Assembly: GCF_016859285.1 (NCBI RefSeq)
Contig: NC_053422.1
Span: forward strand, 13,442,501-13,506,500
Length of the DNA: 64,000 nt
DNA from: Xiphias gladius
Taxonomy: Eukaryota; Chordata; Actinopteri; Istiophoriformes; Xiphiidae
Reading direction: 5' to 3'
This document shows positions 31,318-63,240 of the stretch, piece after piece. Numbering within the stretch: position 1 is the first letter of the stretch; each line of letters opens with the position of its first letter. Both the position numbers and the translations under genes were made by a program. The notes below the pieces were generated by a model that worked only from the letters and a program-made list of their open reading frames with translations, was not told the origin of the DNA and ran no database searches.

Positions 31318-31406
<89 letters not shown>

Positions 31407-34400
31407 TGTGTGTGTGTGTGTGTGTGTGTGTCTGTGTGTGTGTCTGTGTGTGTGTGTGTCTGTGTGTGTGTGTGTGTGTGTGTGTCTGTGTGTGTGTGTG
31501 TCTGTGTGTGTGTGTGTCTGTGTGTGTGTGTGCGCTCATACAGTATGAATGAAAAGACTGGCCCATGACGAGGTGACCCCATCTAAAGAGAGGAGGAGTA
31601 GATGAAATCTGACGCCTCATACCTCAGACAGTTTTGTTTCCATACATACATACTTATACATTCCTATTCTTGAACACACACACATTTATTCCCTGTCTCA
31701 AGCTTACACACACTCTATCACACACACACACACGCTATCCTCTGCTCTGTTTCTGTATAAACACAGTTACAATACAGGACTCCACAGCCGTACTGTACTG
31801 ACTGTGTTATATATAAACAGGACCCGATCGGTTTGTGCAGCTGAGATGTGACGGGCACATGCGTATGTGTCAGTACTCAGCATACAGGCAGATATTAGGC
31901 TTGCAGCAGGCTACAGGAAGCTACGCTCTTATTTCTGACTTTCCCTCAGTTCTGTAATCTGCTAACGAGCCGTGTGTGACTTGTCAAATATCATAGCCCA
32001 ACATTTCTGTATTTTTTTTATTTATTTTTATTTAGAGCGGCATGGTACGAAGTTTTCAAATAGCATGACAGTCAGTGACAGAATTTGGAGAAGCATTTCC
32101 TCAGCTTTAAAACAGGTTTGACATAAAAACTTGGAGCATTACTGTAGGTCTACTACGAGTCTAAAAGAGAAATTGCATTGAGAAACAATGAAACTATGTT
32201 GTCCATTCAAGGAAACCCAGTTTATAATCCTTTGATTATGGATTCATTTTTGATTAGATAAGTAAGTATGCATCACAGCCTGTTCCTTGTGCAGAACTGG
32301 TTGATGTCTCTCCTATGGTCACTCCTGATGACATGAATAGCAACAATACTAGCAGATGGAAAAACAGTGATTTCTCAGAGGCTAAGTTGAAACTTTTAGA
32401 ATTAGTGACCATAACATATCTCTGTGGTACTGTTTAAAGGAATAGTTTGACATTTTGGGATATCAATTTGCCAATATTTCGATAACAAAAGATACTAAAA
32501 ATGTGATGGTTCCAGCCTCTCAAACATGAGAATTTTTTCATTGTCTTACTTTATTGTAAAATGAAAATATTTAAGCTGTGGACTGAAAAATGGAGTGGAA
32601 TCATAAATTTGGGCTGTGCCAAGTTGCGATGGACTTTTTTCACAGTTTTTGTTGGGTTGTTTTTTTTCTAGACCAAACGATTGATCGAGAAAATAATTGT
32701 CAGATAAATTGATAATAATAAAAATAATCCTTAGTTGCAGTCCCAATTTGTTGTTGTACTTCGGTTTTTGTATGAATTAAACAAACAAGATATAATGTGA
32801 TAATTAGTGAGTTTACTGCTGGTTGGTGGATTTTGCTCTTTTTGGACAGAATCCGACTAGCTGTTGGCCTATGTTTCCAGTCTTTGTGCTAAGCTAAGTT
32901 AACTGTCTGTTGGCTGTAACTATCAGCAAGAAAGTAATTAAGTGAGTTTCCCAAAAATGTTGAACTATTCCTTTAATTATCCAGAACATTTGAATGAAAA
33001 TGTGGTTTCTAATATAACCAGATTTGAGATTGTCAAACAAAAAATAACTACAGCCTTGTCTTCTTACTTCTCTGATCTCCATCAATGATTGGCACATGAT
33101 TTTGTCCAAATTTGTCATGAGTGTCTGGGCGTATCATAGCGTGTCCATGCATATCAGTTGTTGATGCTATGTGCTATAAGTAAGTCTAAGCTTGAGCAGC
33201 TGTCTTTTCTGTCTGATTCCCTGACACGTGGTTTAAAAACAGACTTAAGAGAGAATGAGCAAATGTTCCAAGCTTGTCCCCACGGGGATCTCAGACTTAA
33301 AATATTCCCCTTTTATCCCTCTCCACTTACACATCATGAGCACAGTCTCTCACTCTTTTTTTGCCTGGGGTGTTTTCCATCCCCTACATCCATCTCTTAT
33401 TACATTTCTCTTTTTCTCTTACTTTCACTTTTACTCACCTCATGTCTTTCTCTTCCTCTCTCCGTCCTTTTTTACTCCTCTCTCTGTCTCCTTCTTCATC
33501 TATCTATACCTCTGTCTCATTTTGTCTCTGTTTCTCGGTATATTGATCGATCTCTCTATCTCTCTTTTTGTATACACATGTTTGAACATAGACAAATGAC
33601 AGCCATATTGGAATGCATGTGCAGCAGATCTGGCGCTGATTGTGCGACAGCCAAGATGAACTTTTAGAGGATCTGCATTCTTTTCTGATCAGATGACACA
33701 CAGACTAAAATCAGAACCATAATTCTCTCTTCCCCAATTCCTGTAAAGCTCCTTTAGGCAAATGAAAGCTCAGGAAAAAGCTCTGTTTTATGTAATTTGA
33801 GTTGCCCCCTTGTTTCTCAAATAACCAAAGGAAATGAGCAGTAAAGTAAGTTTCTATGCTCAGGCAGTGATAGAATTGTGTTTATATTTATATTATATTT
33901 ACATTTAGCTTAACATTTGTATTTGCTGTCTGTCTCAAATGTTTGTTCTCTTGCTTCCTTTTGCATCTTTCATGACTGGCAAGCTTGTATTCAATTAGGC
34001 ATATTAAACACTGGCTCTGATAGAGGTCATTTAATTCCCCGAAGCCAATACATTCTGTAGATTTACAAGTCAGATTGTCCAAAGGGATTCAGGTTCAAAT
34101 GATCTTTACCTCCAGTTGCCTCTCTACTGCTGTCTCAGTATAGCTAGTTAATCTGTAACCAAGGGAAAAAGCCCTGCCCTCTTTAAAGGCCTTATCTAAA
34201 CATTATTGGATCAACAGGACTTGGAATATGAGCATAGAAGCCACAATTAAACCTTCTCCAACACAAAATTTATTGACTGATTTGAGCCATGAGCTCTTTG
34301 TCAAGTTGAACTCTGTATTTGTCCACACAGACTATAAAGGCTTGGGTCCCTCTACCCACTTGGTCACTGTTTAATAATTTGCAGTATGTTGTGGCAGCTA

Positions 34401-37400
34401 AACTTATAAATATACATATGAGGATTATTAATAGCAGTGAAAAACAGTTGAACACAGAAAATGAATCAATGTTATCTATCTCTTACACCTTCCTGTATAA
34501 GCCCTACCCACTTCCTGTATAAATTTAAATACAGATATTTTGGTGAAATAAACAATTACAGGTAGGAGCTCTTCATTGCTGCAACCTTAGTGTTTAGGAA
34601 TGTCAAAATCCTTGAATCAACTTTAAACAAAGCCAGTTACCAGGCAATATTTGAAGTCATTAGAAGGCACAACACCTTATGCACAGAGCCGTTCTTTTAA
34701 CAACTGATCTTTTCTACTTGTCTCTCTCCAGGTTACGACTTTGCCGCGGTGCTCGAATGGTTTGCAGAGCGCGTCGACCGCATCATCCTCTTGTTCGACG
34801 CCCACAAGCTGGACATCTCTGATGAGTTCTCCGAGGTGATCCGTGCTCTCAAGAACCACGAGGACAAAATGCGCGTGGTGCTGAACAAGGCGGACCAGAT
34901 CAGCACTCAGCAGCTGATGAGGGTCTACGGAGCGCTAATGTGGTCTCTGGGGAAAATCATCAACACACCTGAGGTCAAAAGCATTTCTTTTTCACACTTG
35001 TGCTTTTGTTTATTCCATAAATTTATTTAAATTGATAACATTTTGACCCCAGTGGGATCAAAATGTCTGTTTAAATCAATCCAAGCTTATGTTTATTTCC
35101 GACACTGACTGCCAGAACTTGCCTTCTTCAGCTGGTAATAATCAGTTGTTACATACTGGGAGCGGTCACAGTCTGTTAATGTTTTGAGGGGAAAATGTGG
35201 CCATCTTAGGAAGATCTGAACAGAGGTCAGATGATTTCTTTCCCCAAGGACGAGAGTAACCAAATAGTGACATATTTTACATTGATGCCAGTCAATGTTC
35301 TCAGCTTGTCATTGTAACAAAAGTCATAAGAAAAAACTCTTAAGTGTGTGAATGTAATGAAAGTGAAAGGCAGTTTAATTACCTTCCATCTCAGATCCTA
35401 TGTCCTTCTTGATATCATGTGACCCGTCTTATGACTTTTCCCTGTTTAGTTAATATTTGATCCAGAACTGTATTCATAAACCAATCCCAGAGAAACCTTT
35501 GGATCATATAGACAACTATTCATTGACTTTGAGTGTGTGTTGTATTGTAAAGTCTCTCTACATGATATAAAACACAAAACACTTATGTTTTATAAGTTTA
35601 TTTTTGCTTCACTTTTAACCTCACAGTCCTGTGTTATGTTGTCATGTATCCTGTTTGTGTTTTTTCCTGGTATATTGTGCCTGTTTACACATTTCAGCAA
35701 GATTGCAGTGTTATGTATGTGACCTGTGCAAGAATTTCCTCTAATGTGGGTGTGGGCAGTAAAGTGTACCCAGAGGGACAGTGAAGATTAATGGAGATTA
35801 ACTTGTGCAAACTTTATTCCAGGTTGTGCGTGTGTACATCGGATCATTCTGGGCACAGCCCCTGTTGGTCCCAGACAACAGGAAGTTGTTTGAGGCAGAG
35901 GAGCAGGACCTGTTCTTAGACATCCAGTCATTGCCACGTAACGCGGCCCTACGCAAACTCAACGACCTGATCAAACGCGCACGTCTCGCCAAGGTCAGTA
36001 TTAATGAGATTTAAGAGTCTACACCCATGCTAGCTGCTCTGTGAGGTACATTGGTGCTTTAAGCTAGAGGCTAACATCAGCATGCTCACATGCTCACATG
36101 CTCACAGTAACATGCTGATAGTTAGCAGGTATAATGTTTTAAATGTTCACCATCTTAATTTAGGATGTTAACATGCTAACATTTGCTAATTAGCAGTAAA
36201 CACAAAGTACAGCTGAGGCTGATGGGGAATGTCATTAGTTTAACAGGTATTTGGTCAAAAAATAAAGTAACTGACAAATTAAGATTTTGACCTGATGATG
36301 GTGCTAGGTCAAATGTCAAGGGATGACCAAAATGAAGACAAGTCAGGGGACCACAAAAGTCCTTAGGATTCATCCTCTGTGGACCACTGATAGATGTTGA
36401 GATATATTTCCATCAGGACCAAAGTGGTGCACTGACCAACATTGTCATACCTAGTACCATGATGCTTGTGTAGCTAAAAAGCACCTGCTTAAAAAAAACT
36501 GCATCAACGCATCTTATTTTCACTTTCTTTTCATTTCTACCTCCTGTGCCCCAGCCCCACAAGAAGAGGATTACTTAAAAAAAAAAAAAGTCCTGTTTTC
36601 TGCAACTTTGTTAGTGTGTAGTTTCTAAACTAACCACAGCACAAATGAGTACAAAGTGTGTCTGAAGATTTAGCAATCTGATAAACCAGTAACCTTCTGA
36701 CATTTACAAGAAGAAAAGAGGAATTATTTGTTGTTTGTGCTACCGGTCTGTATTTATATTGAGTTAATCCCTAACCTTAAAAATCCCCTGCAGACATGTT
36801 TTAAGACACATGAAAATACTCTGCTTTAAATAATAATGGCTGACAAGGTTTTTCCACATGAAGTTCAATTAACTAGTTAAAAATAAAATAGAATGTTTAT
36901 CTGTTTTTTTTTTTTTTTTTTTTTTTTTTATGGTGACTAGGTGCAAGCCTACATTATCAGCTCTCTGAAAAAGGAGATGCCCAGTATGTTTGGAAAGGAC
37001 TCCAAGAAGAAGGAGCTGATATCCAACCTGGGAGAAATCTACCATAAGATTGAGAAGGAGCACCAGATCTCACCTGGAGACTTCCCCAATCTGGCCAAGA
37101 TGCAGGTGAGATAAGGATAAATCCAGATGTACACAGTGGACAGTGATGTACTGTCCAGAGTTACAGAACTGATGAAATAACAACTTCGACTCTATTTTTG
37201 ACATGTTATATAAAGTATTCGGTTCAGAGTAGATTGACCTTCCAACCTTAACTCTCTTCACATCTTTGACCTTTTTTCCTGCCCTTGCCCTCCAGGATGG
37301 GCCAGGATGGGGATGAGATTTATTTTTCCTGGTTTGTCAGGAAATCCTGCTTCTTGTATGCTACTCCCATTGGTAGCCATTGAAGACTGACCTATTTCTA

Positions 37401-37974
37401 TCACCAATTCCTGTTTACTCTCAACCCCCCATCCCTTCAGGAGCTGCTGAATGGCCAGGACTTCTCCAAGTTTGCAGCGCTGAAGCCCAAGCTGCTGGAG
37501 GCGGTGGAAGACATGCTCGCCAACGACATTGCCCGTCTCATGGCCATGGTGCGCCAGGAAGAGGCCTCCATGCCCAGCCAGTCTGTCAAGGGTGGAGCCT
37601 TTGAGGGAACCATGAGTGGTCCCTTTGGTCATGGCTATGGAGAGGGTGCAAGTGAAGGCATCGATGAGCTGGAGTGGGTGGTGGGTCGCGACAAGCCTAC
37701 ATACGATGAGATCTTCTACACCCTCTCTCCCATCAACGGCAAAGTGTCAGGTGCTGCAGCCAAGAAAGAGATGCTGAAGTCCAAGCTGCCCAACACAGTG
37801 CTGGGAAAGATCTGGAAGCTGGCAGATGTGGATAAAGACGGACTCCTTGATGACGAGGAGTTCGCCCTTGCCAACCACCTCATCAAGGTGAAGTTGGAGG
37901 GCCACGAGCTGCCGCCCACGCTGCCTGATCACCTGGTGCCCCCGTCCAAGCGTGGGACAGTCCTCCAGGATTAG
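24816..37974 (+). CDS. ehd1: EH domain-containing protein 1 (endocytic recycling ATPase)
   Basis: Six coding exons keep frame: 24816-25204, 29933-30030, 34732-34973, 35823-35993, 36941-37105, 37441-37974; 532 aa, as expected for EHDs. The dynamin-like ATP-binding domain has a P-loop GQYSTGKTT (60-68), DTPG (148-151) and NKAD (214-217); the helical region follows, with KKPF-type [17 protein letters not shown]. The C-terminal EH domain (about 438-532) has an EF-hand loop [13 protein letters not shown]. EHDs oligomerise on tubular membranes and return cargo from the recycling endosome; the EH domain binds NPF motifs. ehd1 is preferred over ehd3 and ehd4 by sequence ([33 protein letters not shown]) and by synteny with ganab, ubxn1 and ttc9c. 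The N-terminus ([13 protein letters not shown]) is shorter than in human. The C-terminal tail [11 protein letters not shown] differs from human EHD1. It may be one of two teleost ehd1 copies. Confidence 0.94.
31020..31195. repeat. Repeat A relic in ehd1 intron 2
   Basis: Words GTTTTCTGGCATTTTCTAGG, ATTTAATCGAGAAAATAATC and AACCGATAATGAAATTAA match one end of the repeat A family (TIR side). Degraded. Confidence 0.5.
31320..31532. repeat. Long (TG)n microsatellite in ehd1 intron 2
   Basis: About 213 bp of TG repeat. The first half is pure and the second half is interrupted by regularly placed TCTG variants. Open frames read from it (Cys-Val or His-Thr repeats) are artefacts. Confidence 0.97.
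32436..32976. repeat. MITE-like repeat B with repeat A nested inside
   Basis: The outer element begins TTTAAAGGAATAGTTTGACA and ends with its inverted copy, GTTGAACTATTCCTTTAA, a TIR pair. Near the right end are the words TTGTATGAATTAAACAAACA and AGTCTTTGTGCTAAGCTAAG, typical of a family common in percomorphs. The block 32485-32745 (CCAAACGATTGATCGAGAAA, CCTTAGTTGCAGTCCC) belongs to family A and interrupts B, so A inserted later. A second partial B copy is at 60270-60500. Confidence 0.75.
33340..33560 (+). repeat. Pyrimidine-rich low-complexity tract in ehd1 intron 2
   Basis: More than 200 bp of C/T-rich sequence with TCTCTCTATC-type runs. It explains the long Ser/Leu/Phe-rich open frames there, which I do not regard as genes. 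Confidence 0.8.
36013..36482 (+). repeat. Dispersed repeat C (GCTAACATGCTAACAT-type) in ehd1 intron 4
   Basis: It begins AAGAGTCTACACCCATGCTA, carries CATGCTCACATGCTCACATG and GTACAGCTGAGGCTGATGGG, and ends CATACCTAGTACCATGATGC. These words match a very abundant percomorph repeat that I know from memory; its class is unassigned. The copy looks nearly full length but diverged. Confidence 0.7.
36904..36929 (+). repeat. Poly(T) run next to the ehd1 exon 5 acceptor
   Basis: Twenty-six T in a row, ending 11 nt before the intron's terminal AG. It therefore acts as, or abuts, the polypyrimidine tract of this 3' splice site. Confidence 0.9.
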
Positions 37975-41972: not shown

Positions 41973-42895
41973 TCAGCAGGGCCGCCCGGCTGCCGGTCGA
42001 GGTGCTCCGAATATCTCCTGTGAGGCATAGGTGATGTAGAGGAAGCCATCAGTGTCGCTGTAGCGGGAGTAAACCTCCCCCATGCTAGAGGACATGCAGG
42101 ACATGCTCTTCTCCGCCACCAGGAGGAACAGAGCCTGGGTAGAGTCCAATGCAATCTTATTCCTGAGAAGCAGAAAGAGGCAGAGATGATGTAAAACAAC
42201 AGAGATTTGCTCTAGGACAAGGGGAGAGAGAAGAGGGAGAGGGAGGCAGAGGTGTGGGCAAGCTGAGAGAGAACACTGGTAAATCTGACAGCGTGGGGGA
42301 GAAAATGTAAAGGACGGGGGGTTGAATTAAGAAGAAAAAGGGAGAGAAAAATCAGAAAGGAGCTGGATGAGACGTGAGTAGTAACCATAAGAAAAGTCTG
42401 ACACGGTGCCACAGATCATTTACCTGAGCAGGCAGAGGAACTGACCGAGGGTGAGCTCAAAGGGAACCAGGAACTTCGTTTTGTCCAACAGGGGGAGAGT
42501 CTTTTCACGGATGTAACGTTCAACAATCACCTGGGCACAAAAACACATCTGTGATCAGCTGATGGTGCAGTCACGCCCAGCCAAATTAAAATGCATTGAA
42601 TTTTATAAAATAGCAATTTAAACCAACTCACAGGCAACTTGTTGGGGAATTTAGACCGAATGCTGCACACTTCATCTTTTCTTGTTGCTAAAGAGAAATA
42701 TTTATAGACATTTTTACACATTTAAAAAAAAACAGCATCCATACATCGTAAGGCCAATATGTTAATGCAAGCACGTTACAGCAACCTACTTACAGAAACT
42801 TACAGTAATCAAAGAATCAACTGAAAATGTGACTCACCGAGGCATTTCCTCTGCTTGAAGGGCATCATCTCCATGGATTTCTCAAAAGGAGCCAT
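41973..42895 (-). CDS. map1lc3c: Microtubule-associated protein 1 light chain 3 gamma-like (Atg8 family)
   Basis: Four coding exons keep frame on the minus strand: 42838-42895, 42632-42687, 42424-42530, 41973-42162; 136 aa. The start MAPFEKSMEMMPFKQRKCL resembles LC3C (PFKQRKSL) more than LC3A or LC3B (TFKQRRTF). The ubiquitin-like core has SKFPNKLPVIVERY, LDKTKFLVP and DTDGFLYITYASQEIFG. Gly126 is followed by a 10-residue tail, so ATG4 cleavage is needed to expose the glycine for lipidation to phosphatidylethanolamine. The family decorates phagophores and recruits LIR-containing receptors; human LC3C prefers NDP52. The usual RR-type pair before the third strand is LLR here. It may be the fish paralogue named map1lc3cl. 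Compact gene, introns 94-207 nt. Confidence 0.92.
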
Positions 42896-43156
42896 GTTTG
42901 TTTGTTGCTTGGGGTGGTTTGCAGGGACCAGTGGTGATGGAGGTGTGTGCAGCTGGCGGCACCGGCGTGGTCTGGCCCGGGCTGACGGTGAAGTCCCCTC
43001 GGGTGGAAGTAAGCAAACCCCACTGAGAAGCTGTGAGCGGTGGTGTTTTATGGGAGGCAGAGATGGGAGGAGTCGAAATGTGACACCAACAAACAAAGGC
43101 ACACTCCTCGTCCTGGTGGGCAGCGTGTGGATGCAGGGGGTGCATGACCGTGTGTG

Positions 43157-43158
<2 letters not shown>

Positions 43159-43190
<32 letters not shown>
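43159..43190. repeat. (TG)n microsatellite
   Basis: Perfect short dinucleotide run about 0.26 kb upstream of the LC3C-like start. Confidence 0.9.
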
Positions 43191-43191
<1 letters not shown>

Positions 43192-43448
43192 TTCCCCTCC
43201 TTACTGGTTCAGATCACATTCACACGTACTGGTTATCTCAGAGAGAATTCTCACATCTTCTTGTGATATTCACACAGAGGAGTACGAACATGAAGATAGA
43301 GGTGTAATGAGGGCAGCCCACCATGTGGAGAGCATAAACAACACATGACATTAATGATTCAGACAAACAGGGACTCCAGATGAAACCCCGGTCTTTTAAC
43401 ATGGCTGGTGCCGTGTATATGATAAGGTTTGACAGCTCTGAATTCAAC

Positions 43449-46425: not shown

Positions 46426-49400
46426 ATGGCCGCCCGCCGCGGCTGCGTGAACTCGCTCTGGTCGGGCACCGAGCGCGTCCGCATCGGCGAGCGCCTCAAA
46501 GCGACGCTGGCCGGGGTGCTGGAGCTGGAGCTGCTCAGGTGCAGACACCTGGAGATGGTGGACGCCGCGCTGGAGGACCGAGCCCCTGCTGCTGCCGCCG
46601 CCGCCGAGGAACCACGGGCGGCGGAGGCGAGCGGAACCGCGGAGAGCGCCGCCTCGGATGCCGAGCATGGCTCTGCGACATCCCGCAGGCAACAGGTCAG
46701 TCAGTGCGTCTGTCAGCTTATAGCCCGGATCTCTGCATGACGGGATTATTAAATATGGATGCGGGAGTGATGGTGATCTGCCAACAAGCCAGTCCCTCTG
46801 CGGCTCAGTAGACAGATCTTATCGCTGCCTGGCGGCGCATGGCTGTGCCGAGAGCTGAATACCCAATTGATTGAGATGGTGCCAGAGAGCATCCAAGCAT
46901 GCAGCCCGGTCTTTATGCACAGCAGCAGTGTGTGACCGTCACATGGAGCAAATGTCATTGAGGTCAGAGTGCCAGGACCAGCTCCTGTCTGGCTGGCCCT
47001 GTGCCCTGCCTCAAGGTTATAAGGGAGGATGTGGTAGGATACAGGCGCTAAAATCTTGTGTACGCATTAATACGCAAACCTGCAACCAGAGGCTGCTGCG
47101 TTATTTGGCTCTGGACCGTGGGCTCGTGGGCTGTAAAGGTCACAGTGGCACCCAGTTTGCATCCAAATCACTTTGATCACTATATGAAGGTAGAGTCCAT
47201 CACCGTCAGTCATCTTGTCCCGAGCTAAAGGTGCACTTTGTGCAGCTCCAATGGAGTGTGACCTACTCAGGAAGGGTTAGGATGTGTGATGTCAGGCTCA
47301 TCTTTAAACACACCCACACAGAAAAAGAAAGAAACCCCTTTCCCAACCTTGTCCTGAAAACGGATATGCAGGTGGTTTTTGTGACGAGAATGTGGGTTGA
47401 CATGTAATACAGGAGGAGGGGACGTGAACATGTCCCATCCTGAGGCCTGGATACCGAGGCTGTAGCTGAACATGAATTAAAATTGAACCTGAGAGGACAC
47501 TAAGATGTAAAATCTATTGAAAATGAGAGGATCATTGTGACTTTTCTCTTCAGAAACACAGCAGGATTTCATTGGGGAAAATGGGAGAAATATTAAGGCT
47601 AAAATGGGCATTGGCAAGAAAATACTGAACCATGAAAGTGATAGGGAATACTAGCGCTGAATCGATTAGTTGATTAATTAATTAGCTGATCAGCAGAATA
47701 ATAATCTGCAAGCATCTTGATCATCAATTAGCCTTTAAGTCATTTTTCAAACAAAAATGACAAAAATCCTCTAGTTCCAACTTCTTAAATATGAGGACTT
47801 GCAGCTTTTTTTTGGTCTTGTGTGACAGTAAACTAAATGTCTTTAGGTTTTGGATTGTTTGTCCAACGAAACAAGACGTGAGGATGTCACCTTGGGCTAT
47901 TGAAAAATGTGATGGCCACTTTTAACCTATTTTCTGACATTTTGTAGCACAAACAATCAGTTGTTAGTTGGAGCCCAAGGGGATAGCACAGCCTGTTTTC
48001 TCTTATCATGTGGCACCAGTTTAAAAAATAAAAAAATAATTGCACCTCTCCACAAAAGAGCAAGAAAATGAACTTGTTTTCATTGGTGAAAACATCACCC
48101 AATGTATTTTGACACGGTAATGTAAAATCCTTGTGAGCAGAAATGCACATTTTGCTGCGGACCGAAACTTTGAGGGACAGAACGCAGCTGTTTGTGTGTC
48201 ACTTTCTACAAAATCAGTCTCTCGTGGATAATCTCGGGATCGTTTCCATATTTGACAAACCAGTGACATGACAGGTTCATGTAATGTTGAGCGAGTTTGT
48301 CGCCAATCATTTTGATCATCGATTAATCATTCAAGCATAATTACCAGACCGTAATTACCAGGTACAACTTCTCAAATGTGAGGATTTGCTGCTTTTCTTT
48401 GTCTTTTGTGATAATGAACTGAATAGATTTTGGTTTTGGACTGTTGGATCAACAAGACAAACACTTGGACGACATCACCTTGTATAAAATGATCTCTCTT
48501 TAAGACCAAAACATCATCAGAAAATAAACACACAGTGATATGCAGTATATTCTGAAACCTGTGGACTTAGCAGATTCAGTGCATTGCACATATTGTAGAG
48601 TGCGGTGATGTGGTTTTCTACTAAATCAGTCTCTCGTGGATTATCTCTGGATCATTTTTCAGATTTGACAAACCAGTGACACGTTGTGTTCAGGAGCTGC
48701 TGGTGTCGGGAGTTTTTTCGCATCAGATGTTACGGTATATGGGCCATTGTTGGCTACATAGTAGCATTTCATTGTCATCCACAGTAAGTAACACACACTT
48801 TATCACGGTCACTTTGCACTTTGCACAGTGTTATTACACCGTGAATCTGTGCGCTTGATACCGATGAGTGGTATGAGTCAGCAGCCTGCAGCAGCGTATT
48901 ACACGTTTAGTCTAAACCAGAGCACAGCTGAGGTCACCTTTGCAGAATGGTATGTTTATTTCACGAAAAAATATGAAATCGTATGTGCATGGAAGCACGG
49001 CTCATAATGTGCTGCCTTCCTGGCCACCCACCAACCAACATCTCCTGTAAAGCTCCCCCCCCACCTCGTTGTGATGATATATCCTGTGGAGAGGTCAAGC
49101 AGCATTGCTCATTCTCACCTCTGAAGGGAGCTGCCAGTGTAGCAGAGCAGCCTGGGATTCTGCCTTCTGCCTGGGCCGGCCTCCGCCAACACACAGACAC
49201 ACGCACACAACATTTGCATAAATGGCGACTAAATGTTGTTCTTTTTCTTGCAAAAGTGACCACATCTAGTTTGAAATACTGCAGCGGCTGGAGAGCGAAC
49301 ACGGAAGAGAAAGTGGGTTGATACCGGCTGTTTTCTTTACTACCATAAAGGTGGAAAAGAAAAGGTTTCATCCACAAACACGTTATATTCATTTTACCTG

Positions 49401-52400
49401 AAATTCGTTAGTTTTTTTTTTTAAAAACACAGGTTGTTGTACTTTCAAAAATATAACTATTTTGTAAGCCGAGGATTAGGTGACTCATAACATGATGCGC
49501 TCTACTTTAACAACAGCTTTTCATTTTTTTGGAATTAAACTGTTGAAATGTGATTTATCTTTTCTCTAACAGCAGAGAGAGAGAGAGAGAGAGAGCAGAG
49601 GTTAGCACTGTGCAAATCCGTGTTTGGCAGGTCGGGATTATGGCTGTTTGGTGTCATCTGTGATGGAAAAATGCAATTTAAAAAGACACTCCTCATCTTT
49701 GCAACCATGTGATGAGTTTCCAGCCTTTGTGAAGAATGCAGGTTTTTGAAAAAAGTAACACCTGTTGAAAAGCAGTGCTTGTGGACAGAAAGCACATTTA
49801 ATTTGCACAGATATGTTTTAATATCATAAATAATTCAGGTTTAGAGTCTGTTTTTATAAACAGAACAAGCTATGGTTTCCAAATCATAAAGCATTCTGCA
49901 TATACTGTATAAAGTAGAAGAAAAATGGAATTGTCAGTGTGTAACATGTTCACACTTTTCAGCAACTCCTCTGGCCTTCAGAATGGGTGTCAAGGCCAAG
50001 TTGGTGAAATCGTCAGTTACCATTTAGTGTTCAAAAATAAAATTCTCCTCGCTAAAGAAAAACCCACAGAGGACAGGAGTTTGAGAAGTGGAAGAGCTTC
50101 CCATACTTCACGTATACAGCAGAGCTGCAACAATTAGTCAATTAATTGATGGGCGGAAAATTAATTTGGAATTTATCTTCATAATCTAATTTAATTTTCA
50201 CAGTTGAGAAGATTATCAGTTTCCTTTTCTTAACAGTACAGTAAACGGACTATCTTTACGGTATGTGTGTCTGCTCCATCTGCAGCGGTGTGAGCGCTCT
50301 TACAGAAGGCAGCTTGTGATGAAATTAGGTTTAGTATTGGAAAGCATCATTTTACAAGGAGAGCCATTACCCTGACTTGTGGAGCGAGGCTGCTTTTGTC
50401 TCCGGTTCCAGCCCAGGGATCCTTCAGAACTCACGGGGGGGGCCTGGAACATTGATGCAATTTGAAAGATCCACCTGAATGTGTCAGCAAAGCTGGAGCG
50501 CATCACTCCACTCGGCGGTGAAGCTGAAGATGAACAGCGTGGGCCGTCTTTATATTTCAATAGCACATTAATAATGCATGAAACAATAAATACTGCACCC
50601 TGTAGAACAAGCAAATACTTCTCACCAAACGCTCGCTCCGTCCTACGCTGTTTGACCAAAGTGTTCTGCCTCAACATGGCAACTGCTGCAGTTTGTCTGA
50701 CTGTAATGAAATAATGCCTTTAGTAAGAGGAGGTGTTTTATGTGTGCAGCTGCGATCATCCAATCGACCCATACATTTTCTACATGTTGTTAAAGAGGGG
50801 CTGTGCTGCTCCGTCACATGAAGGTATATCATATTACAGAGCTGAGTGGACCCCCACCCGCTTGTCCGTCAGCCCCCTATGATCTGATCATGCGCTGGTC
50901 TCTGTGTAACATTATATCCTGTAATGCGCAATGCTTTATGACGTGGAGGGATAATACAGAGAAGTAGAGGTTTGTGTAAGAAAAAGGCAAAGAAGGATCT
51001 TTTTGCAGATAGTCACACATTCAAGGGACTTTCTAAAGGGTAAATTCAAATATTTAAATTGACATAACAAAAGAAGCGAAGGGAAAAAAACTTAAGTTGG
51101 GGCCCGTACAAGTGCAGCATGATAAACGCGTGCTTTTATGGCAGTAGGAAGGGAAATGCACAAAGCGGGATTTGCGGCAGAACAGACGAGGACATGCATG
51201 CGAGTGAAAGTCGCAACGAGACTGAATTTGTGTGTGTTCAGGTTGAGGATGAGTTAAATATTTCGCCTGGCCCGCTGTGCTGTTGTGGGTCTGTGTGGGT
51301 GGAGAAGTGAGTGAGAGTTAGAGAACGAGCAGCTGTAGCTATGGTGAGTAGGGGGTGGCTGGCTCGAAGGATATTACAGAAGTGGGGGGGGGGATTATTT
51401 GTCAAGGGGAGTGTGGGGGTGCCTCAAGATGCCCTTCTCTTTCACCCGGCAACCGCTCACCGCTCCCTCCCTGCCTTCACTGCCTTCACGCAATCAGTGA
51501 CTCACACTCTTATTTCTCAGTCTGTTTCTTTTTTTGTCTCTCTCGCTCATTTTGGTCAGCCACTTCCCACTAGATTCACAGAGGGGAAAAAAAAGAAAAA
51601 GTAAAAGAAACGGGACAGGAGTGAGTCGAAGCTCCCTAATCTCTCACAGATAAACCTAAGACAGGTCAAAGTCTGAAACTCTTTCTCCCACTCCCCCCTT
51701 CTGCCGCTCCGGCTGCTCTTTGTTACGTCATCTGTCTTCTCCCATTATCTTCTGAATCCCCCTCCTCTCCTGTCTCTCCCCAGCAGTGAGTCACAACCTG
51801 TATTGTTTCCTCAGTAACAAGAGGATTGATCAGTACCACTCAGTGTTTCCATTGTCTGGGCTCCGTCAGTCCAATGCAGGGGGCTCTTGGCTGCTGTCCT
51901 GGAGGGGCGGGATGGGGGATTCGGAGGATAATTGGAGGAGGGGAGCTACTCTACCATGCCTTTACTAGTCTGGGAAATTGAGGCACTTTGCTACCCTGAC
52001 AGGGCGATGATTATTCTTGTTATTGTGCGTGGGGCCTCATTCCTGACTGTTCCGGTAAGCGTGGTGTGACGTCATGGGTGTGTGTCTGGCAAATGTTATC
52101 ATGGACAGACAACACTACACATGGGTCTAACTGTGTCTCTGCAGTTCCAAGGACTTGCGAGCTTAAAGCTGTGGCTTTTACTGTCGGTGGCGGAAAGTAA
52201 CTGCGTTCATTTACTCAAGTACTGTACTTAAGTACAATTTTTCGGGTACTTTACTTGAGTATTTCCATATAATGCTACTTTCTGCTTCTACTCCGCTACA
52301 TTTCAGAGGGAAATATTTTGCTTTTTACTCCACTTCTGTTATTTGGAAACTCTAGCTCCTAATTACTTTTCGGATTAAGATTTTACTTAAAAACATGTGA

Positions 52401-55275
52401 TAAACTTAAAAAATACAATAAATAATAAGTCAATTACACGGGACCTTCCTCTGCAGGACAAGTACTTTTACTTTTGAGTACATTTAATACTTCATAATAC
52501 TTCAATACATAAGAACGATTTGAATAAAGGAAATTTACTTTTAATGGAGTATTTTTACATTGTTGTATTGGGACTTTTTTTTAAGTAAAGGATGTGATTA
52601 CGTCTTCCATCACAGCAATATACATAGATACAGCATAGGATGTTTTGCTTTTGCAGGGCAATAAATCAAAATGACCATTTATCAGCTTCTAGTAGAATCA
52701 TGATATGACCTTATCATGTTGTCATTTTACAAATTTCTGTTGTCCAAATGAACGATTCTGAGGAAGATGCACTTAAAAACTAATAAAATGAGTTATTAAA
52801 GTTTCATGTTTACACATGTGAAGAGTTTGGGCTCCTGTGATGTTGCACAGTTGAGCATAGTTTATTGTTTTGAACATTTTAAGTATTTTCTATGTGTTGA
52901 GTGTCAAGGTTGATTTTTACCACCAAGTTTGGCAAAAATTCTCCGCCAAAACGTCCTGTTACTTGGTGCTTCTGAGCTTTCAGCCGTGTCTCGTGGCCTT
53001 CCTCAGATGATGGAGATGGTTTATTTGTTATCATGTGACTTAACATCTGGTTATACAAAGATGCCCTTCTAGTCCAATATTTTGATGCCTTTTTATATGT
53101 GATTTAGCACACATTTTCCATACTACTTGACATAGTGATTTCAAACATACTGCCCAGCCCTACATCCATAGGTATTCAGTACATTACCTATGATACTAGC
53201 TGCCCCGGTGATGCTTGCACCCTTTGAAAACAGGCTTGTAATCACTTCAGAGGATGGCTTGAGACCCAGAATGGGGTAAGGCTCAGTTAGGGCTGGATGG
53301 TAATTCAGTAATCCTTTACGGAGCAATCATATTGTAATTTTATTATCATATTATGTTATTGTTGTAAAAAAAAAAATCTATAGTCCAAAGTAATGGTTCA
53401 AACTAAATTGTAATGAAAAAATAACACATCAGTTATTGAATTATTGTTTTACATGTGTGAAAGGTATTTTCTGATATAACGCACAGTAGTGGGACAAAGT
53501 TTCTTGCACTGGATGTAAGTCTGATTGAAAACGCCTGATTTTTCAAATGAGATTAATTAAGAGGTTGAAAACACTGGTACAAGTGGAGCCACTTTTAGTA
53601 TGTGATCATTCGCACAGATGTTTGCCCACTAAACTGAAGATCTGTTGAAATTTCATTTTAGCAAAGAAGCCCTGTAATTTGTCACAGCAAGTAATTCCTG
53701 TCATTAAACCCACTGGGTGATAATACGCACACAAAATTAGATTGAATATCATCTAGGTAATTTTGTCACTGTAATATTTTGTAATGTTTAAATAATGTCT
53801 TTTCTATGGTTGTAAACACTATGATTGTAATTTTATTTCTGAACTTAATTGATTCCGGGTGATTTTTTTTTGGGAGGGGGGGGGGTTATTTATTTTTTAC
53901 AGACAAATATGATGTACATACATATAGTCATTGTCACAGTATTTACATATATTGGTCAAAGATACTGCAATATTTGAATTTGTCAGTGGTACCCAGCCAT
54001 AACTTATCACACTTTTTTTTTTTTTCAGGCTGCCTCTCCTTCAGATATAATGGCATTGCCCTGTCAGAGCAGCCCAGAAGACTGTGGCAGTAATTCAGGG
54101 GATGGGACAGTGAACTCATCTGCAAGGGGAAGTAATTCACGCTGGTCCACTCTGTCCTGGGACGCTCCCTCTGACCTGCTCTCTCCCCCAATGCCTGACC
54201 CCAGTGGTATGGTCCACCTGGAGAGTGACTCCAGACCCAGTTCAGGTAAAAATGTGTTTTCAGTGGTTAAAATGGTGGACAGCGTGTGATAATAGCACTT
54301 ACCTGTATGATGACCAACAGTTTTGTCACCTTCTGTTAAAACTAGAGCTCAACCTTGTGTAAGAGAAGTCCCATTAAACATTAACCGTACTCTTTTTACT
54401 TTTGTTTACTTGCACTCTTCGTGACTTGGCACTGACACATTCAGTTTCTTTCTTTCTGTCAACCTTTCAGCCTTTCTTGCCAAACTCTTGTCCACTCTCA
54501 TTGTAACTCTGGTCCCTGTGTTTCTACACCCAACTCAGACATTTCTCTCTCAGCTATGCACTCATTCATGCCTTCTTTTTTGACTATTTTTTACTTTATT
54601 GTAGAGGAATTTCCCACCAACTACCCATTTCTGTTCATATACGTCCAAACTAAACACTGTTGGTACTGAAAACATTCCTCAGGATAGACAGTATTTAGAA
54701 CGGAAAATGTAAAACCTTTAAGTTAAATCTACAATAACAGATGGCATTTTAGGCAGCAACACTGATGACATCCATGACATGAAATTGCTTTTGTTTTGTT
54801 TTTTTAACTATTCCTTAAAATTAAAATTAACATAAGCAGTGGAACACAGAAATACCTTGACAATAGGCCCATGTGAACAATCCACGAAAGAAGAAAAAAA
54901 AGTCTGACAAAAAAATTAGTTAGCCAAGGAATAAGTGAAATTCCTAATTTAGAGATTTATGAATAAAATAATAAAGATAATTAATAATAATTCAAATGAA
55001 ATCATGGGCAGTATAGTGACTATACTGGTTGTTTAGTGTCTATAGAAGCATTATAGAAAAATTGCTGGATGTTGTCACTTAATACTGAATTTGTTTTACT
55101 CTCTTGTCAAGGTTTCTACTCAGTGAGCGGGAGCTCTCTGTCAGACTCGTGCTACTCTGTGTCCAGTGATGCTGCTCAAGGAGGACCAGCGCCATTGGCC
55201 AGACCTCTGAAGCTGTGGGAGCAGGTTCCACTGTCTACTGACAACACTGACATCCTGTGGTCAGAAGCCGCAGTT

Positions 55276-55322
<47 letters not shown>

Positions 55323-58173
55323 ACAACCTGTACCACGGAACAGCCAGGAAGATGCCGAACCAACAGAAGGCACTCCAGTTTCAGGTGAGCAGGTGCAGAT
55401 AATGGAGGGTATGAATCCTTCCAAGCAAATATGAATCTTCAGTAGACAGCTTGAAGCTAGTTCAGAAAGGGCAACTGAAGACAGTTCAAAGCAGAGTTCG
55501 GGCTCTAATCTGTTGGTTAACGTCAGTGGAAGTCTTAAGTCTTGGAAGAGTTGGATATGTAAATATTTAGCGAATGATAATCTAAAATAGAAAAATTATT
55601 ATGTCTTAAATTCTTCTTCTCTCGTCTTTTACAGTACCAATTGACCTTGAAGTGACAGGTCTGAACTTTGTGTCTGACCTCTGCTCAGGACTCGGTGACT
55701 CTCTGATTGTTTCCCTCCTCCCACTGCTTGACCCCACCTCTTCTTCCTCAACCTCCTCCCTCCATCCGAAACCCCACCTGGACACTCGCTACTGTACTGA
55801 CCTTGTGTCCCGTCGGACCAAAGAGGTTTACTCGTACCCCAGCCCACTGCATGCTGTCGCCCTCCAGAGCCCCCTCTTCACCTCCCAGAGCCAGGAGCAA
55901 TCAGCCTCTCTGAGTCCTGAAGGACCCAAACATGATGAACCACTTGAGTCCAACACTGACCCAGCTCTGCCTCTCCAGCCTCAGCAGCTCCACACCCTGG
56001 CCTCCTTCACCCAGCTGGAGCAGTACATCTCTCGCCTGGCTCGTCAGTACCACAGTCGGGTAACCACCTCCACCTCTGATCTCACTTCAGCTGCCACCCC
56101 TGGTTCAGTTGCGCTCAGAGGTCTTTGCACTCCCGGCAAAAGTCATGGATCCACCCAGTCTCTTTCTGCCTTTGAAAGCCGCAGTACACATTCCAATATG
56201 CCAGGTGGCAGCATCACTCCCTGTAAGTCATTGCTGGGAAACTCAGCCAGAGTCAGCCTCAGCACTACTGGGAAAAAGGCCACTAGGAACTCAATCAACC
56301 TGGGCAACCTTCCTTCAGCAACTGGAGAGGACTTGAACATAAATCTGCATCTCAACCTTAACTTGAATCTGGCCCCTGGTTTAAATTCTAGCCGGGGACT
56401 TGTGGACAATCCCAAAAATGGCAGTTGTGGAGCTGTGAGGAGTGACTTTACTACAGCTCCCACTGCATCCACTTCAACACTCTCCGCTGCTACACCCACC
56501 CCAGCACTTAGAGCGCGCCCTCGCATTTCAACTTGTCCAAGCAGCCTGAGCCACCGCAGTTCCCTGGAGGTCACTTCAGGGTCTGGACCCTGTTCCGGAT
56601 TTGGGTCATCAGCTTTCTGTCGCTCATTAGACTGGGGCAGCAGTGCTCCACCTGAGGCTGGACCATCGGTGTTTGGTACAAATGCTGGATCAGCTCCTGA
56701 GTCTCAGCGTAGTAGCTTGATCCAAGAGTCCAGCTCCAGTCCCAAATTAAGTGAAGACTCCCCCATGGTGGGAGAGATTTCCCGCCTGTCTGGCCTGTCC
56801 AGGGCTGTTGTGGTTGAGCTGATGGAACAAGGTGTGGAGCTGGATATTGACTGCTTCCAAACAGATACTGCAGGTGAGGTGAGGGGTCACAGTAAAACTC
56901 ACCTGACAGCTCAGACAGATCAGTCACATGACTATACCAGACTGACCGACCTGAATCCCCAGAGACCAATACAGCTCTCCCTCAGTGTCACCCATTCTCC
57001 TCAGTCTCAGTCCAGTCTCACCCCTCCTCTCTCACACTCAAGCAGCCCCATACACCCTTACCAGTCCATCCATATTCCCTCTCCCCACTACTCCTCACAC
57101 TGCCACTTCCAGCAAATCCCTTCTCCATCTGACCTCCCCTCTTCTACGGCCTCCTCCCCTGCTTCGCGCCCTAATCCCAGGGTTCGCTCCCCTCCCCGGC
57201 CTCTCCAGCCCTCCCCCTTGGGTGCCACCCCTCTCTCAGTTTTCCGTCGGGATGCGCCATTCCAGTGCTCCCTGCCCCACACCAATACCAGGACCTCTCC
57301 TTTGGAGCACGGTGGCATCCAACCAAGAGGTGGATCACTTCGGCAGAGTGGGGGAGGAAGTGGAGGTACTGGCGGGTGGCAGAGGGTGGAGGGGGAGGAC
57401 TTTATAGAGGAAAACATACCTCCCATAAGTTGATCAGGGCAGCCACAGTAAGCAGCTATGCCAAGAGAGAGGACTACAGCTCTGTTTGGGATGAGGAGGA
57501 GCAAAAGGCTCAGACACCAAGAAAGACCTCAAACAAACTCTGGAGGGGCTTTGAGGGACGCCTCTGGGGCAAAGAGTCAGAGAGCGAAAGGGAAGAGATG
57601 GACAGGGCTGAGTACGGCTATGGATGGAGGAGGAACAGCATTGGAAGCTGGAGGAGGGAGCACCGCAGGGTAAAGGCTTCATCCAGCAGTAATGACAAGA
57701 GGCCAAAAGTAGACAACTCCCCCATTTACTCAAAGAAGAGAGGGAAAGAAGATGGGGAGAGACGCAGCTCCAGCCTCAGGCTTTCCAGAAGGGCTTTGTT
57801 TAGGAGCGAATCCCAGGGTTTGCTGGTGCCTCGTAACAACAGTGAGGAGCCCACAAAGCGGGCACACTGGGTCTCCTCATTAGATGTGGGGCAAGGGGTC
57901 ATGGGCATCAGCAAAGAAGAAGGGGTTAGGCTGCTGAGAGCAAAGGAAGAGGACAAACGCTTGTCCTCCACCGCCAGCCTCTTTAACCTTTCTCGCTCTC
58001 AGAGCCTGGAGGGCAGCTGCCACTCCATTTCCCCTCTCTCATCCCCTTCTTTTTCTCCATCCCCTCCTCCACGGATGCCCCTCCAGCGCTCTCGATCACT
58101 GAGGGACTTGGGGAGGAGAGTGTTTGGTTCCATGAGGTCTCTGAGTCTCAAACGGAAGCCATCCAAGAAGTGA
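46426..58173 (+). CDS. dact4: Dapper/Dact-family protein, probably Dact4 (frame unresolved near its 3' part)
   Basis: Exons 46426-46695, 54029-54245, 55112-55384 and 55635 onward join in frame. Family signs are RIGERLKATLAGVLELELLR (Dact ERQEATLAGLAELEYLR), the exon 2/3 joint at LESDSRPSS|GFYSVSGSSLSDS (Dact LETDSRPSS|GFYELSDG), YSYPSPLHAVALQSPLF (Dact YRYPSPLHAVAVQSPMF) and LEQYISRL (Dact MDGYILSL). Dact proteins bind Dishevelled and tune Wnt and TGF-beta signalling. Not found: the leucine zipper and the terminal MTTV PDZ-binding motif; the protein would end LSLKRKPSKK. Without further splicing exon 4 stops at 57433 (852 aa). A GT-AG intron 57366-57448 (83 nt) would continue to 58173 (1071 aa). 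A run of 15 Gln lies in exon 3. ATG 46426 is the first in-frame ATG. Neighbour ehd1 mirrors EHD2-DACT3. Confidence 0.65.
47645..47985. repeat. Repeat A, nearly complete copy
   Basis: It begins GCTGAATCGATTAGTTGATT and ends TTTTCTGACATTTTGTAGCA plus CAATCAGTTGTTAGTTGGAG. The two ends are imperfect inverted repeats. It is the longest copy of family A in the window (about 340 bp). Confidence 0.65.
48203..48683. repeat. 68-bp direct duplication flanking a repeat A relic
   Basis: 48203-48270 and 48615-48683 are near-identical (both contain AATCAGTCTCTCGTGGAT and ATTTGACAAACCAGTGACA). A degraded repeat A copy (about 48290-48500) lies between them. Confidence 0.75.
50117..50215. repeat. Repeat A terminal fragment
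   Basis: CAGAGCTGCAACAATTAGTC and AATTAATTGATGGGCGGAAA correspond to one TIR end of family A; the rest is missing. Confidence 0.55.
52180..52615 (+). repeat. Repeat E, nearly complete copy
   Basis: It begins GTCGGTGGCGGAAAGTAACT and ends AAGGATGTGATTACGTCTTC plus CATCACAG; the two ends are imperfect inverted repeats. The interior carries TACTCAAGTACTGTACTTAA and CTACATTTCAGAGGGAAATA, typical of this percomorph family. The structure suggests a non-autonomous DNA transposon, superfamily not assigned. It is the best-preserved E copy in the window. Confidence 0.75.
53876..53885 (+). repeat. G10 homopolymer
   Basis: Ten G following GGGA, about 145 nt upstream of the exon 2 acceptor of the Dact-like gene. 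Confidence 0.85.
55276..55320 (+). repeat. (CAG)15 coding repeat
   Basis: Fifteen pure CAG codons in exon 3 of the Dact-like gene, encoding polyglutamine. A pure codon tract suggests a recent, length-variable repeat. Confidence 0.95.
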
Positions 58174-59753: not shown

Positions 59754-62494
59754 CTAAACTCCCTCACCAGCTCTGTTGATTTGGTTAATCCCTTCTCCGG
59801 AGCTGCTCTTCAGGCCGGAGGAAAACATGCCTCGATACATGGCCTTCTCTTTTTGCAACTCCCGATTCAGTTTTTCCTCAGCCCTTTGCAGGTGCTTCCT
59901 CACATTTGCATCTGCAACAGAAAAATGAAGTTTTGTTCTGGGAAGGTATATTTCAAATATGTAGGAGAAGGCTGAGAGAGAATCTGCAATACCTACAGTA
60001 TGCTAGAGGTCTTACATGTATGGATTTGACTTGTCCAGCAATTATTTGACAGAGCCAACTGTCCTTTAGATAACTGCATGAAGTGCAAAATGTCACATAC
60101 TTGGTCTTGCCAAAATGAAAAGAAAATTAACAAACTGATTGTGATAAATTAGTCCATGAAATAAAAATACAGAGTGCAATTTGGTCTTTGTGAGCTCTGA
60201 ATTTGCAGAGTGTCAATCATTTTATCTGAAAGACCTTTAATACGGACAATTTAAGTTGCATCTCATTTGATTAATTGCTGACGGCGATAACTCGTTAATG
60301 AGCTTTACAGGTGATAGGAAGATTTTGTTACTTTGGATAGAGCCAGGTTAGCTGTTTCACGTCTTTATGCTAAGCTAACTGGCTGTAGCTATTTAACAGA
60401 CACTAAGAAGAGAGTGGTATCGCACCTCTCATCTAAGTTTTGGCAAAAAAGCATATAAGCATATTTCCCAAAAATGTCAAACGACAATTTCTTTAAGTTC
60501 AATAAAGATATCATGCTCCGTTAGTTGGTGGATGTCATTACAAAAAAAAAACAACTTTTTTTTCCCTCTTAGGGTAATTTGCTATATTAAGTGATATTAA
60601 ATATAAAACTAAATCAGGATCATTAGTAACAGTCTGTATACAGTAATTTTACTGAAGGCAGTCAGTTTTCACAAATAACAACCAATAGAGACTAAATACT
60701 CACTGGAGACAAATATCCTTCTAAAATGGTTTGGCTGTCTACACTGGACACTTCACAACCACATTTTTGGTGTCCGTCTCATGAACATCTGTCGACATAG
60801 CTGTCTATACAGGCCATGGAGCAGCTCGCATGTCTCAAGTCTGTTTTCCTCTAAAGTCCTGTTCATACCTGGCATTAAAATGCTTCTCCACATGCGTCTC
60901 GAGTAACCGCTTCTGATCAGATCTCACTTCCGCGCGCTCTATATGCAAATAAAAACGTACATCATTTCCGAAGAAGAAATCAAAACAATACAGAAGGGGT
61001 CTATTTGTTGGCGTGTTCCAGGCAAACCAAATTGCCCAAGATGTTTGACGCACTCACAATATATCTCTATGGGCTTTTCGAAATTTCCAGACGTTGTGGA
61101 CAAAGCCAGCTTTAATGATTTGTATGACTTGTATTTGTTTGCGAATGAGTAAATACTTCATCCACTTACACAGAGGAAATCAGTTGAGTAGGCGGTCCTT
61201 CAATTTTGCTTGGGCCATATTGGATTACACACTGCTAAAAGAATGTGGCGTATGCAGCCCAGCTCACCTCTGAATGCGGTCTGAGCGATGAGATCTCAAT
61301 GCTTAAATACTTAGTTATTGCATCCCCAAGACGCATGTTAATGTCAGGTACGAACAGGGCCTTAATGACTCATATAGCTACACTCATTCTGTATTGGACT
61401 TTGTGTGCTGCCAAAACACTTCTAGTGCACAACAGTACTGTGGCTGAATGCATACTGTTTGTCCTGCTTTCGCTACATGGCCAGTGAGAAATACAGAAAT
61501 ATCAAAATAAATGACTATTAATACAGAAAATAACCCAAGCCTCCTTTGGATGATCCTGATGAACTGGCTCTTTTCTTACCATTAGGCTGCTCTCTGCAGG
61601 CCTGGATGAGGTACTGTTTGGAAGTCTGTGCATCTCCCATCTCCAGAGCAGCTACTCCTGCCCTGTACAGTGCCTTGACATCGCCTGGTCGCCACTTCAG
61701 CACCCGCAGGCTGTACTCCCGCACACGAGCATAGTCAACACTCTGTCTCTGCAGCAAACAGGCTGAAAGAAATAGATACTGTATGTACATATATATTATA
61801 AAATACTATACTTACTGTATTTGGCTGCCAATTTCTATTGTAAGGCAATCAGTGAAAAAGATGCCTTATGAAGGATGGCACGTCCTTGGAGCTGCCCAAA
61901 ACTACAGAGGGATTGTTGGTTGGGCATGTTCACAGTGAAATGATTTTGCTAAGGACTCCATATAAAACTAGTGACTACAGGAAACTGCTTAACTGAATAG
62001 TTTTTTGAAGAGCTACTACTTGAATAGTTTTTAACGGAACAAGAGATGTATTTAAGTCAATTAACAGTATTTCCACTTGAGCTGGATATTCTAGTGCACT
62101 TTGCAATTTGCATGGTTGTGATGTTTTATCTACCAGCCAAGTTGTTATAGCAGTCCACTTGTGTGTTTCTCAGTGAAGCCTCCTGTTCAGGTGTGAGAGC
62201 AGGTCTCTCAGGTCCAAACCCTTTGATTGAAGTCATCACATCAGCGTCGAGGCCTCGGAGGATCAGCAGAGCACGGTGATAACGGCCAATGGCTGAGCGA
62301 ATGTTCTTCTCCCTGTAGAAAGCATTTCCTTCCGTTTTCATTTGTGCTGCTTCCTCTAGCAAAGACCAAACCGGCTTTGTGGAAGTCTGTCGGTGTCCAG
62401 AAACGCCTGGTTCTGCGGCTGCTGCCGCCGCTGCCCCCTGCACATCTGGCCTCTCCTCCCTTCCCGCAGCCTCCATTTCTGCAGCGGAGCTCAT
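59754..62494 (-). CDS. ttc9c: Tetratricopeptide repeat protein 9C
   Basis: Three coding exons keep frame on the minus strand: 62134-62494, 61580-61762, 59754-59911; 233 aa. The TPR region includes AAQMKTEGNAFYREKNIRSA, GRYHRALLILRGL, CYNNLAACLLQ, VREYSLRVLKWRPGDVKALY and NVRKHLQRAEEKL. The middle LTPEQEASLRNTQVDCYNNL matches TTC9C (LTPEQENILHTTQTDCYNNL) rather than TTC9 or TTC9B. Small TTC9 proteins resemble the TPR modules of FKBP co-chaperones; the function of TTC9C is poorly known. The start is the first ATG after an acceptor at 62498, so exon 1 is probably non-coding; strong donors at 63082 and 63189 are candidates. Compared with human (about 171 aa) there are about 45 extra N-terminal residues, including an Ala run, and an extra C-terminal tail. 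Confidence 0.93.
60270..60500. repeat. Repeat B partial copy in ttc9c intron 2
   Basis: Words CTTTATGCTAAGCTAACTGG and AGCATATTTCCCAAAAATGT and the end AATTTCTTTAAG match the right half of the element at 32436-32976. Confidence 0.65.
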
Positions 62495-62497
62495 GAG

Positions 62498-63240
62498 CTG
62501 GTAAAATGACAAACTTAACATGAATAAATGTTTTATGAAGCCAATAAAGAGCTTTACATACATACACAGACATCATTTCAAGCTCCTGCTGTACATTTAG
62601 TGCCTCACTCACCTAACATACTAAATTGATACCAATACCACGCTTGTTAAACAGACACTCAACTGATTTAACTGTCCACAAGGAGTACTTCATTGCCTCT
62701 GATAGCAGTTTCCACTTTCCAGATCATATACCGTTCCGTAGTCAGTCATTACAAAACTGATATCATAAACCATCCAGGACAATATAGTCATAATCTGCAC
62801 AAGCCCAAAAATACTGTTATTGAGCCTTATGATACCTTACAAATGATTGAGTGATGTCAATACGTTGCACTATCGGTAACTACCCCGAATTAGTTGGGAA
62901 AGACGTGGGGTCACTCCATCCCAGTCCGTAATGCTTAGGGTTACGCCGAGGATGGTGGATGATGGGCAATTATCCTTCATCAACATTTACCGGATTTTAA
63001 CAACACTCTGTACAGGAGCCCGTTAACGCTTTGTGGCTACAGCTAACCGAGCTAACGGGGCTATCAAGCTATCTTCACTTACCTCACTCACACTAGCTAA
63101 CGTTCGTTCAGTTCAGTTTATAATGTCCACACAGTTTAACAGCCTGGCAAATTAAAATGTGATGGCTAAAGTGTTATGCATCATCTCACCTTACAAACTA
63201 CCAGGAAGATAATCAACCGACAGCTAACTATTACTTCTCC
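62498..63240 (-). promoter_or_regulatory. ttc9c: ttc9c 5' region with candidate non-coding first exon
   Basis: On the minus strand two donor-like sites are strong: GAG|GTAAGTGAAG at 63082 and AAG|GTGAGATG at 63189. Either could end a non-coding exon 1 spliced to the acceptor at 62498. GCTAACG/GCTAGC words lie around 63040-63110. The promoter is inferred to lie between here and the LINE tail at 63283. Confidence 0.35.

Follow-up and report, generated by a model that had tools for sequence, protein, structure and literature searches.

A dact4-like gene of Xiphias gladius, located between map1lc3c-like and ttc9c genes and encoding a Dact protein without a leucine zipper and a PDZ-binding end

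A 64,000-nucleotide stretch of Xiphias gladius DNA (contig NC_053422.1), referred to here as the window, carries a gene of the Dact family that has neither a heptad-leucine zipper nor a C-terminal MTxV motif. The sequence evidence indicates, at a probability of roughly 0.93, that this locus is the dact4 orthologue, flanked by map1lc3c and ttc9c in the vicinity of ehd1. The gene looks like an ordinary spiny-rayed-fish copy of dact4, a member of an adaptor family that was lost in mammals. Dact4 was reported as the fourth gnathostome Dact by Schubert et al. (2014, BMC Evol Biol 14:157; PMC4236578), and the sections of that paper at hand describe a four-exon gene that encodes a protein of 1070-1120 aa in acanthopterygians, contains neither the leucine zipper nor the PDZ-binding end, and is missing from mammals, birds, and frogs through loss. 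Since both the gene and its two missing contacts already appear in those sections, the present finding is correct but not novel. According to the same paper, zebrafish dact4 is expressed in the brain, otic vesicle, and pectoral fin bud (PMC4236578), and the consulted part of a gecko genome paper places Dact4 among substitution-rich genes missing in several lineages (PMC5901865). The words dact3 and dact4 are missing from the main text of a zebrafish dact1/2 study, as far as it was accessible (PMC11581427).

Four exons were assigned on the + strand. Exon 1 (46426..46695) contains the start codon and the first helix with ATLAG..ELE..R. Exon 2 (54029..54245), which was delimited by splice sites and conservation, encodes a Ser/Pro-rich stretch in the place of the zipper, including a motif conserved across the relatives, NSRWSTLSWDAPSDLLSPP (54134-54190), and ends with SRPSS. 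Exon 3 (55112..55384), delimited by splice sites, starts with GFY and includes a tract encoding 15 glutamines (55276-55320); the size and composition of this tract vary in Lates and Seriola. Exon 4 (55635..58173) encodes PSPLHAV, YISRL, an N/L repeat, a predicted Dact4-specific hairpin, an S/H/P stretch, and a basic C-terminus. Inspection of the splice sites revealed that introns 1 to 3 are all of the GT..AG type and that the reading frame is preserved across the joints. The exons amount to 3299 bases, or about 1100 codons, and the relatives' proteins are continuous across the exon joints of the window. The preliminary description had proposed four Dact signatures in the exon order of Dact genes, and these were found in that order at 46501-46515 (ATLAG), 54230-54245/55112-55119 (SRPSS and GFY), 55835-55858 (YPSPLHAV), and 56024-56038 (YISRL). 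The joint of exons 2 and 3 falls inside SRPSS|GFY, as is typical of Dact genes. The proposed span of 46426-58173 likewise holds as four exons of a single Dact gene, but exon 4 is not one frame, and the break in it had been overlooked. The product used in the searches below has 852 aa and is encoded by exons 1 to 3 together with the part of exon 4 that ends at 57430.

Profile searches were performed with Pfam families and with a Dact1-3-type profile built from the 120 proteins listed in a Dact1-seeded search, independent of the fish Dact4 set; none of its 120 rows contains any of six Dact4-type motifs. PF15268 (Dapper) was the only Pfam family found in the 852-aa product (E = 1.2e-34; 120.8 bits versus a curated cut-off of 27), and it was also detected in exon 1 alone (3.2e-7) and in the first frame of exon 4 alone (8.2e-23). 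When the 1622 open reading frames of the window, each of at least 25 codons, were searched with the Dact1-3-type profile at E 1, two were matched, namely exon 4 (2.7e-14) and exon 1 (8e-10). The joined product matched at 1.2e-32, far beyond chance, and 1000 shuffles yielded no match to this profile at E 10. Exons 2 and 3 singly and the tail did not match the Dact1-3-type profile, and no match to NCBIfam was obtained. These results show that the gene of the window is a Dact family member.

A protein database search with the 852-aa product, in which 7986 candidates were scored, yielded 714 homologues at E 0.001, and all counts on relatives given below refer to the best 120 of these 714. Among the matches listed, the closest were percomorph fish proteins with 88-89% identity across 99% of the query; identities were 89% for Lates calcarifer (1101 aa), 88% for Seriola, and 85% for Epinephelus. 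The top relatives have about 1100 aa apiece and carry PF15268, which is present in 119 of the best 120 (the exception being P0070). None of the best 120 bears the name Dact4. The homologues of Lates, Seriola, and Epinephelus, which are unnamed or called si:ch211-168f7.5, share 84-89% identity with the product of the window, but unlike it are not interrupted at its break site. The source lgn contributed 21 of the best 120 entries. Seven of them, whose contigs measure 3.6 to 6.5 kb, have all four exons in one frame, which fits spliced transcripts, and the remaining 14 are exon-4-only reading frames of 815-879 aa, which would fit unspliced DNA. One protein of the Dact1-seed listing, P0166 of Caranx melampygus, has a Dapper domain fused to PF00337, which we take to be galectin; this combination is probably a gene-model fusion.

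In a 45-row tree, the gene of the window grouped with 14 acanthomorph fish relatives at 100/100, separate from Dact1, Dact2, and Dact3. The phylogeny thus places it in a fish Dact clade distinct from these three. The central branch (100/98) separated Dact1/3 from Dact2 plus the clade of the window, a split that had already been published according to the accessible sections of PMC4236578. While Dact2 shares one side of the tree with this clade, the clade differs from it in having no MTxV end and in its long branch of 2.55. Several of the rows are fragmentary or have long branches. The labels of nameless rows in the tree are guesses: P0179, a guessed Dact1, was placed with Dact2, and P0230, a guessed Dact2, with Dact3. 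Four rows named dapper 1-like or dapper 1-B in the database (P0199, P0209, P0232, and P0235) were also placed with Dact3. The tree was composed without a sequence named Dact4, a non-teleost Dact4, or a sequence from PMC4236578. In view of this composition, and as none of the best 120 relatives is so named, the designation Dact4 is based on the locus, the size, the exon number, and the missing motifs. The Dact4-like identity put forward in the preliminary description is supported by profile, tree, and synteny.

As a measure of the zipper, the longest run of leucines spaced by seven was determined between the ATLAG and SRPSSG anchors. The run was 2 in the window and 1-2 in all 92 relatives showing both anchors (28 of the best 120 were dropped). 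By comparison, among the Dact1-3-type rows with both anchors it was 6-7 in five of six and 4 in one of six, 114 of the 120 rows having been dropped as fragments or for other spellings. Dact1 shares with the gene of the window, in consensus, the first helix with ATLAG..E..LR, SRPSSGFY, and PSPLHAV, but differs in its helix with 6-7 heptad leucines and in ending mostly with MTTV. A terminal MTTV was found in none of the best 120 relatives versus 76 of the 120 Dact1-3-type rows, in which MT[TLM]V formed the C-terminus in 102. The open tail of the window terminates with SLKRKPSKK, and PSKK is C-terminal in 94 of the best 120 relatives. It is therefore apparent that the gene has neither a heptad-leucine zipper nor a C-terminal MTxV. 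The absence of both contacts, noticed earlier in this gene, extends to the fish relatives that could be assessed. A profile comparison of the Dact4 tail with the Dact1-3 tail (motif 11g) gave E 0.69 globally and E 0.2 locally, in the latter case over one column; since this alignment is not significant, homology of the last residues of Dact4 and Dact1-3 is unproven. A Pfam match of the tail piece to ALK_LTK_GRD was rejected (E 0.13, under the cut-off).

The neighbouring genes were then compared with the published locus. A map1lc3c-like gene with three exon regions is located upstream at 41976..43213 (-); it matched ATG8 at 2.6e-14, its best solved structures were LC3C, and its exons 1 and 2 were assigned by eye. 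Farther upstream, the first and last coding exons of an ehd1-like gene were found at 24804..37971 (+), with EHD_N at 1e-17 and EH at 5.1e-20. EHD4 gave the highest total score for this gene (268.9 bits over 176 residues), whereas EHD1 had the higher score per residue (260.2 bits over 131), a criterion by which the gene is designated ehd1-like. Downstream, ttc9c occupies 59757..62572 (-); its best named matches, obtained with a query joined by eye, were tetratricopeptide repeat protein 9C of Toxotes (91%) and Lates (88%). The expected synteny with EHD and TTC9C genes was therefore found. The ehd1 neighbour named in the preliminary description stood, but map1lc3c, a published Dact4 marker on the other side of the gene from ttc9c, had been overlooked. 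Dact4 and ttc9c entries occurred on contigs of the same size in 40 cases (81 and 85 distinct sizes, copied by hand), and their locus tags adjoin each other in Scortum barcoo, Champsocephalus esox, and Lucifuga dentata. In the consulted sections of PMC4236578, Dact4 is linked to Ttc9 and mostly also to Map1lc3c, with Bscl2 within 1 Mb, and Ehd1-4 are among the four-paralogue sets linked to Dact genes. The earlier reasoning that a Dact gene beside ehd1 is the fourth ohnologue was thus right, but it had been published with Ehd1-4 in that paper. The locus fits the published Dact4 locus for Ttc9, Map1lc3c, and Ehd, in a comparison that left out Bscl2, Ints5, Polr2g, Stx5, and GANAB. The gene itself also agrees with the published description in its four exons, about 1100 codons, absence of zipper and MTTV, Asn/Leu repeat, and Ser/His/Pro stretch, and differs in the frame break of its exon 4; this likeness is one of description and not letter by letter (PMC4236578, sections at hand).

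Structures were predicted with AlphaFold2. A turtle Dact1 isoform, modelled from an alignment of 12 sequences, had helices at residues 30-77 and 97-150. In the model of Lates Dact4, a helix was kept at 15-56, residues 54-219 were under pLDDT 50, and no element of at least 4 residues occurred between 57 and 216. These models suggest that Dact4 has lost the zipper helix but preserved the first helix. The latter is not the sole helix of the Lates model, as helices were also predicted for the poly-Gln stretch at 217-236 and for the YISRL box at 384-411 (the latter with pLDDT 57-61). A hairpin was predicted at 634-655 in a block of pLDDT 70-79, in a model whose overall confidence is low (mean pLDDT 36). 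The corresponding predicted helical hairpin of the window, GEISRLSGLSRAVVVELMEQGVELDIDCFQ, is encoded in exon 4 at 56771..56860 (+). It is probably the Dact4-specific motif 6 of the available sections of PMC4236578, an assignment made by position and without comparing the letters of the motif. A role of this predicted hairpin as a partner-binding element is possible, and it gives the impression of resembling half of a UBA domain. Searches for solved structures gave no match to the Lates relative at a limit of E 0.5, and none to the tail piece at a limit of E 1.

Conservation was calculated over all 82 fish rows with a length of 1030 aa or more. The mean was 0.821, and values of 0.960, 0.939, and 0.942 were obtained for the hairpin region, the RWSTLSW motif, and the last 74 residues, respectively; the last value was 0.954 in 79 rows picked for ending in K. 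Residues 201-300, between SRPSSGFY and PSPLHAV, were poorly conserved (0.57). Judged from these alignments, dact4 is conserved among acanthomorph fish in much of the protein. The term "divergent" used in the preliminary description accordingly applies relative to Dact1-3 (branch length 2.55) but not within acanthomorphs (mean conservation 0.82). The conserved block at the C-terminus, which has 74 aa in Lates, lies at 57949..58170 (+) and ends with SLKRKPSKK, not MTTV. The Dact4-specific hairpin and the loss of the zipper helix, both predicted, together with this approximately 94% conserved block, would constitute new detail beyond the published work.

In exon 4, one frame applies as far as 57397 and a second from 57400 to the TGA at 58171-58173. 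At 57398..57399 (+), two bases stand in the place of the relatives' glycine codon: the relatives have EGEGLYRGKHTS, whereas the window has ...EGE, the two bases, and then LYRGKHTS in the other frame. The TGA stop resulting from the break, at 57431..57433 (+), ends the 852-aa product. A true frameshift truncating the protein to 852 aa would mean that dact4 is decaying in this species, a reading in keeping with this stop and with the loss of Dact4 in mammals, birds, and frogs (PMC4236578, sections at hand). On the other hand, 118 of the best 120 relatives are uninterrupted at the site (101 by pattern and 17 by eye), although the annotators may have corrected some models, for instance P0028 and P0078, which their source flags as LOW QUALITY; the gene models of the other two, P0025 and P0059, omit this stretch. 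The relatives carry both parts of exon 4 in a single protein. The tail past the break consists of 257 open codons with a TGA where expected, and its identity (92% to Seriola and 89% to Lates) matches that of the head (88% and 89%, respectively), so constraint is not visibly relaxed. In addition, the break sits in a G-rich stretch, and sequencing indels are common in such stretches. An intron within exon 4 was rejected, because the relatives keep the flanking codons gap-free and the 14 exon-4-only frames read through. Decay is accordingly improbable, and the most likely explanation of the frame break is an error of the assembly or a young allele, not an old pseudogene.

Several of the best 120 relatives are still annotated as a mucin, FLO11, or a nucleoporin; the names include mucin-5AC, mucin-17, FLO11, nuclear pore complex protein DDB_G0274915, proline-rich protein 36, and agglutinin-like protein. 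Taken at face value, these names would make the gene a mucin-like, FLO11-like, or nucleoporin-like protein, but this identity is refuted by the Pfam Dapper match of the window itself, the presence of PF15268 in nearly all of the best 120 relatives, the tree, and the Dact1-3-type profile, and we regard it as practically without a chance. The odd names probably stem from low-complexity Ser/Pro/Gln sequence. Reading the raw sequence thus recovered a real, often misnamed gene that is absent from mammals. As to its action, Dact4 would be a largely disordered, mostly monomeric adaptor, unable to dock on the PDZ domain of Dishevelled or to pair with other Dacts via a zipper. It retains SRPSSGFY and PSPLHAV, in regions that correspond in position to the Tcf3- and Alk5-binding parts of other Dacts. 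By binding some Dact partners without recruiting Dishevelled, it would compete with Dact1-3 and damp their action, a mechanism that we consider slightly better than an even bet. A failure of Dact4 to bind Dishevelled or to dimerise, and a possible role as an antagonist of other Dacts, were proposed in the accessible sections of PMC4236578. A literature search on dact4, part of which covered the literature as listings, found no functional test of Dact4. The main rival to the competing adaptor is a Dact2-like action, in which Dact4 would inhibit the TGF-beta receptor Alk5 without dimerising and would not antagonise other Dacts. The position of Dact2 and the clade of the window on one side of the tree agrees with this alternative, but the weak conservation of residues 201-300 (0.57) speaks against it, and we hold it to be rather unlikely.

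Beyond the competing adaptor, we tentatively consider, at somewhat less than even odds, that fish Dact4 is a remodelled and not a decayed Dact. If this is true, the Ser/Trp/Pro motif NSRWSTLSWDAPSDLLSPP took the place of the zipper helix, and gain or remodelling produced the Dact4-only hairpin VGEISRLSGLSRAVVVGLMEQGVELDIDCF and the basic C-terminus of 74 residues, which is approximately 94% conserved. These parts would jointly form a new partner-binding set and act on Wnt/TGF-beta signalling independently of Dishevelled.

Further features were observed in the window. The product of the map1lc3c-like gene continues with APRPAAGRPC after a conserved glycine, which is presumably the Atg4 cut site. 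A long CA/TG dinucleotide array is located between the ehd exons at 31200-31620. PRPF39-like HAT/TPR exons were seen at 5545-12500 (+), with a weak PRP39 match (0.0011) under the cut-off. A UBX-domain gene (2.5e-14) lies at 16338-18300 (-); we take it to be probably ubxn1. The names and outer limits of these last two genes were assigned by eye. At 63833-64000 (-), an RNase H piece (3.9e-8), perhaps of a retroelement, extends past the end of the window.
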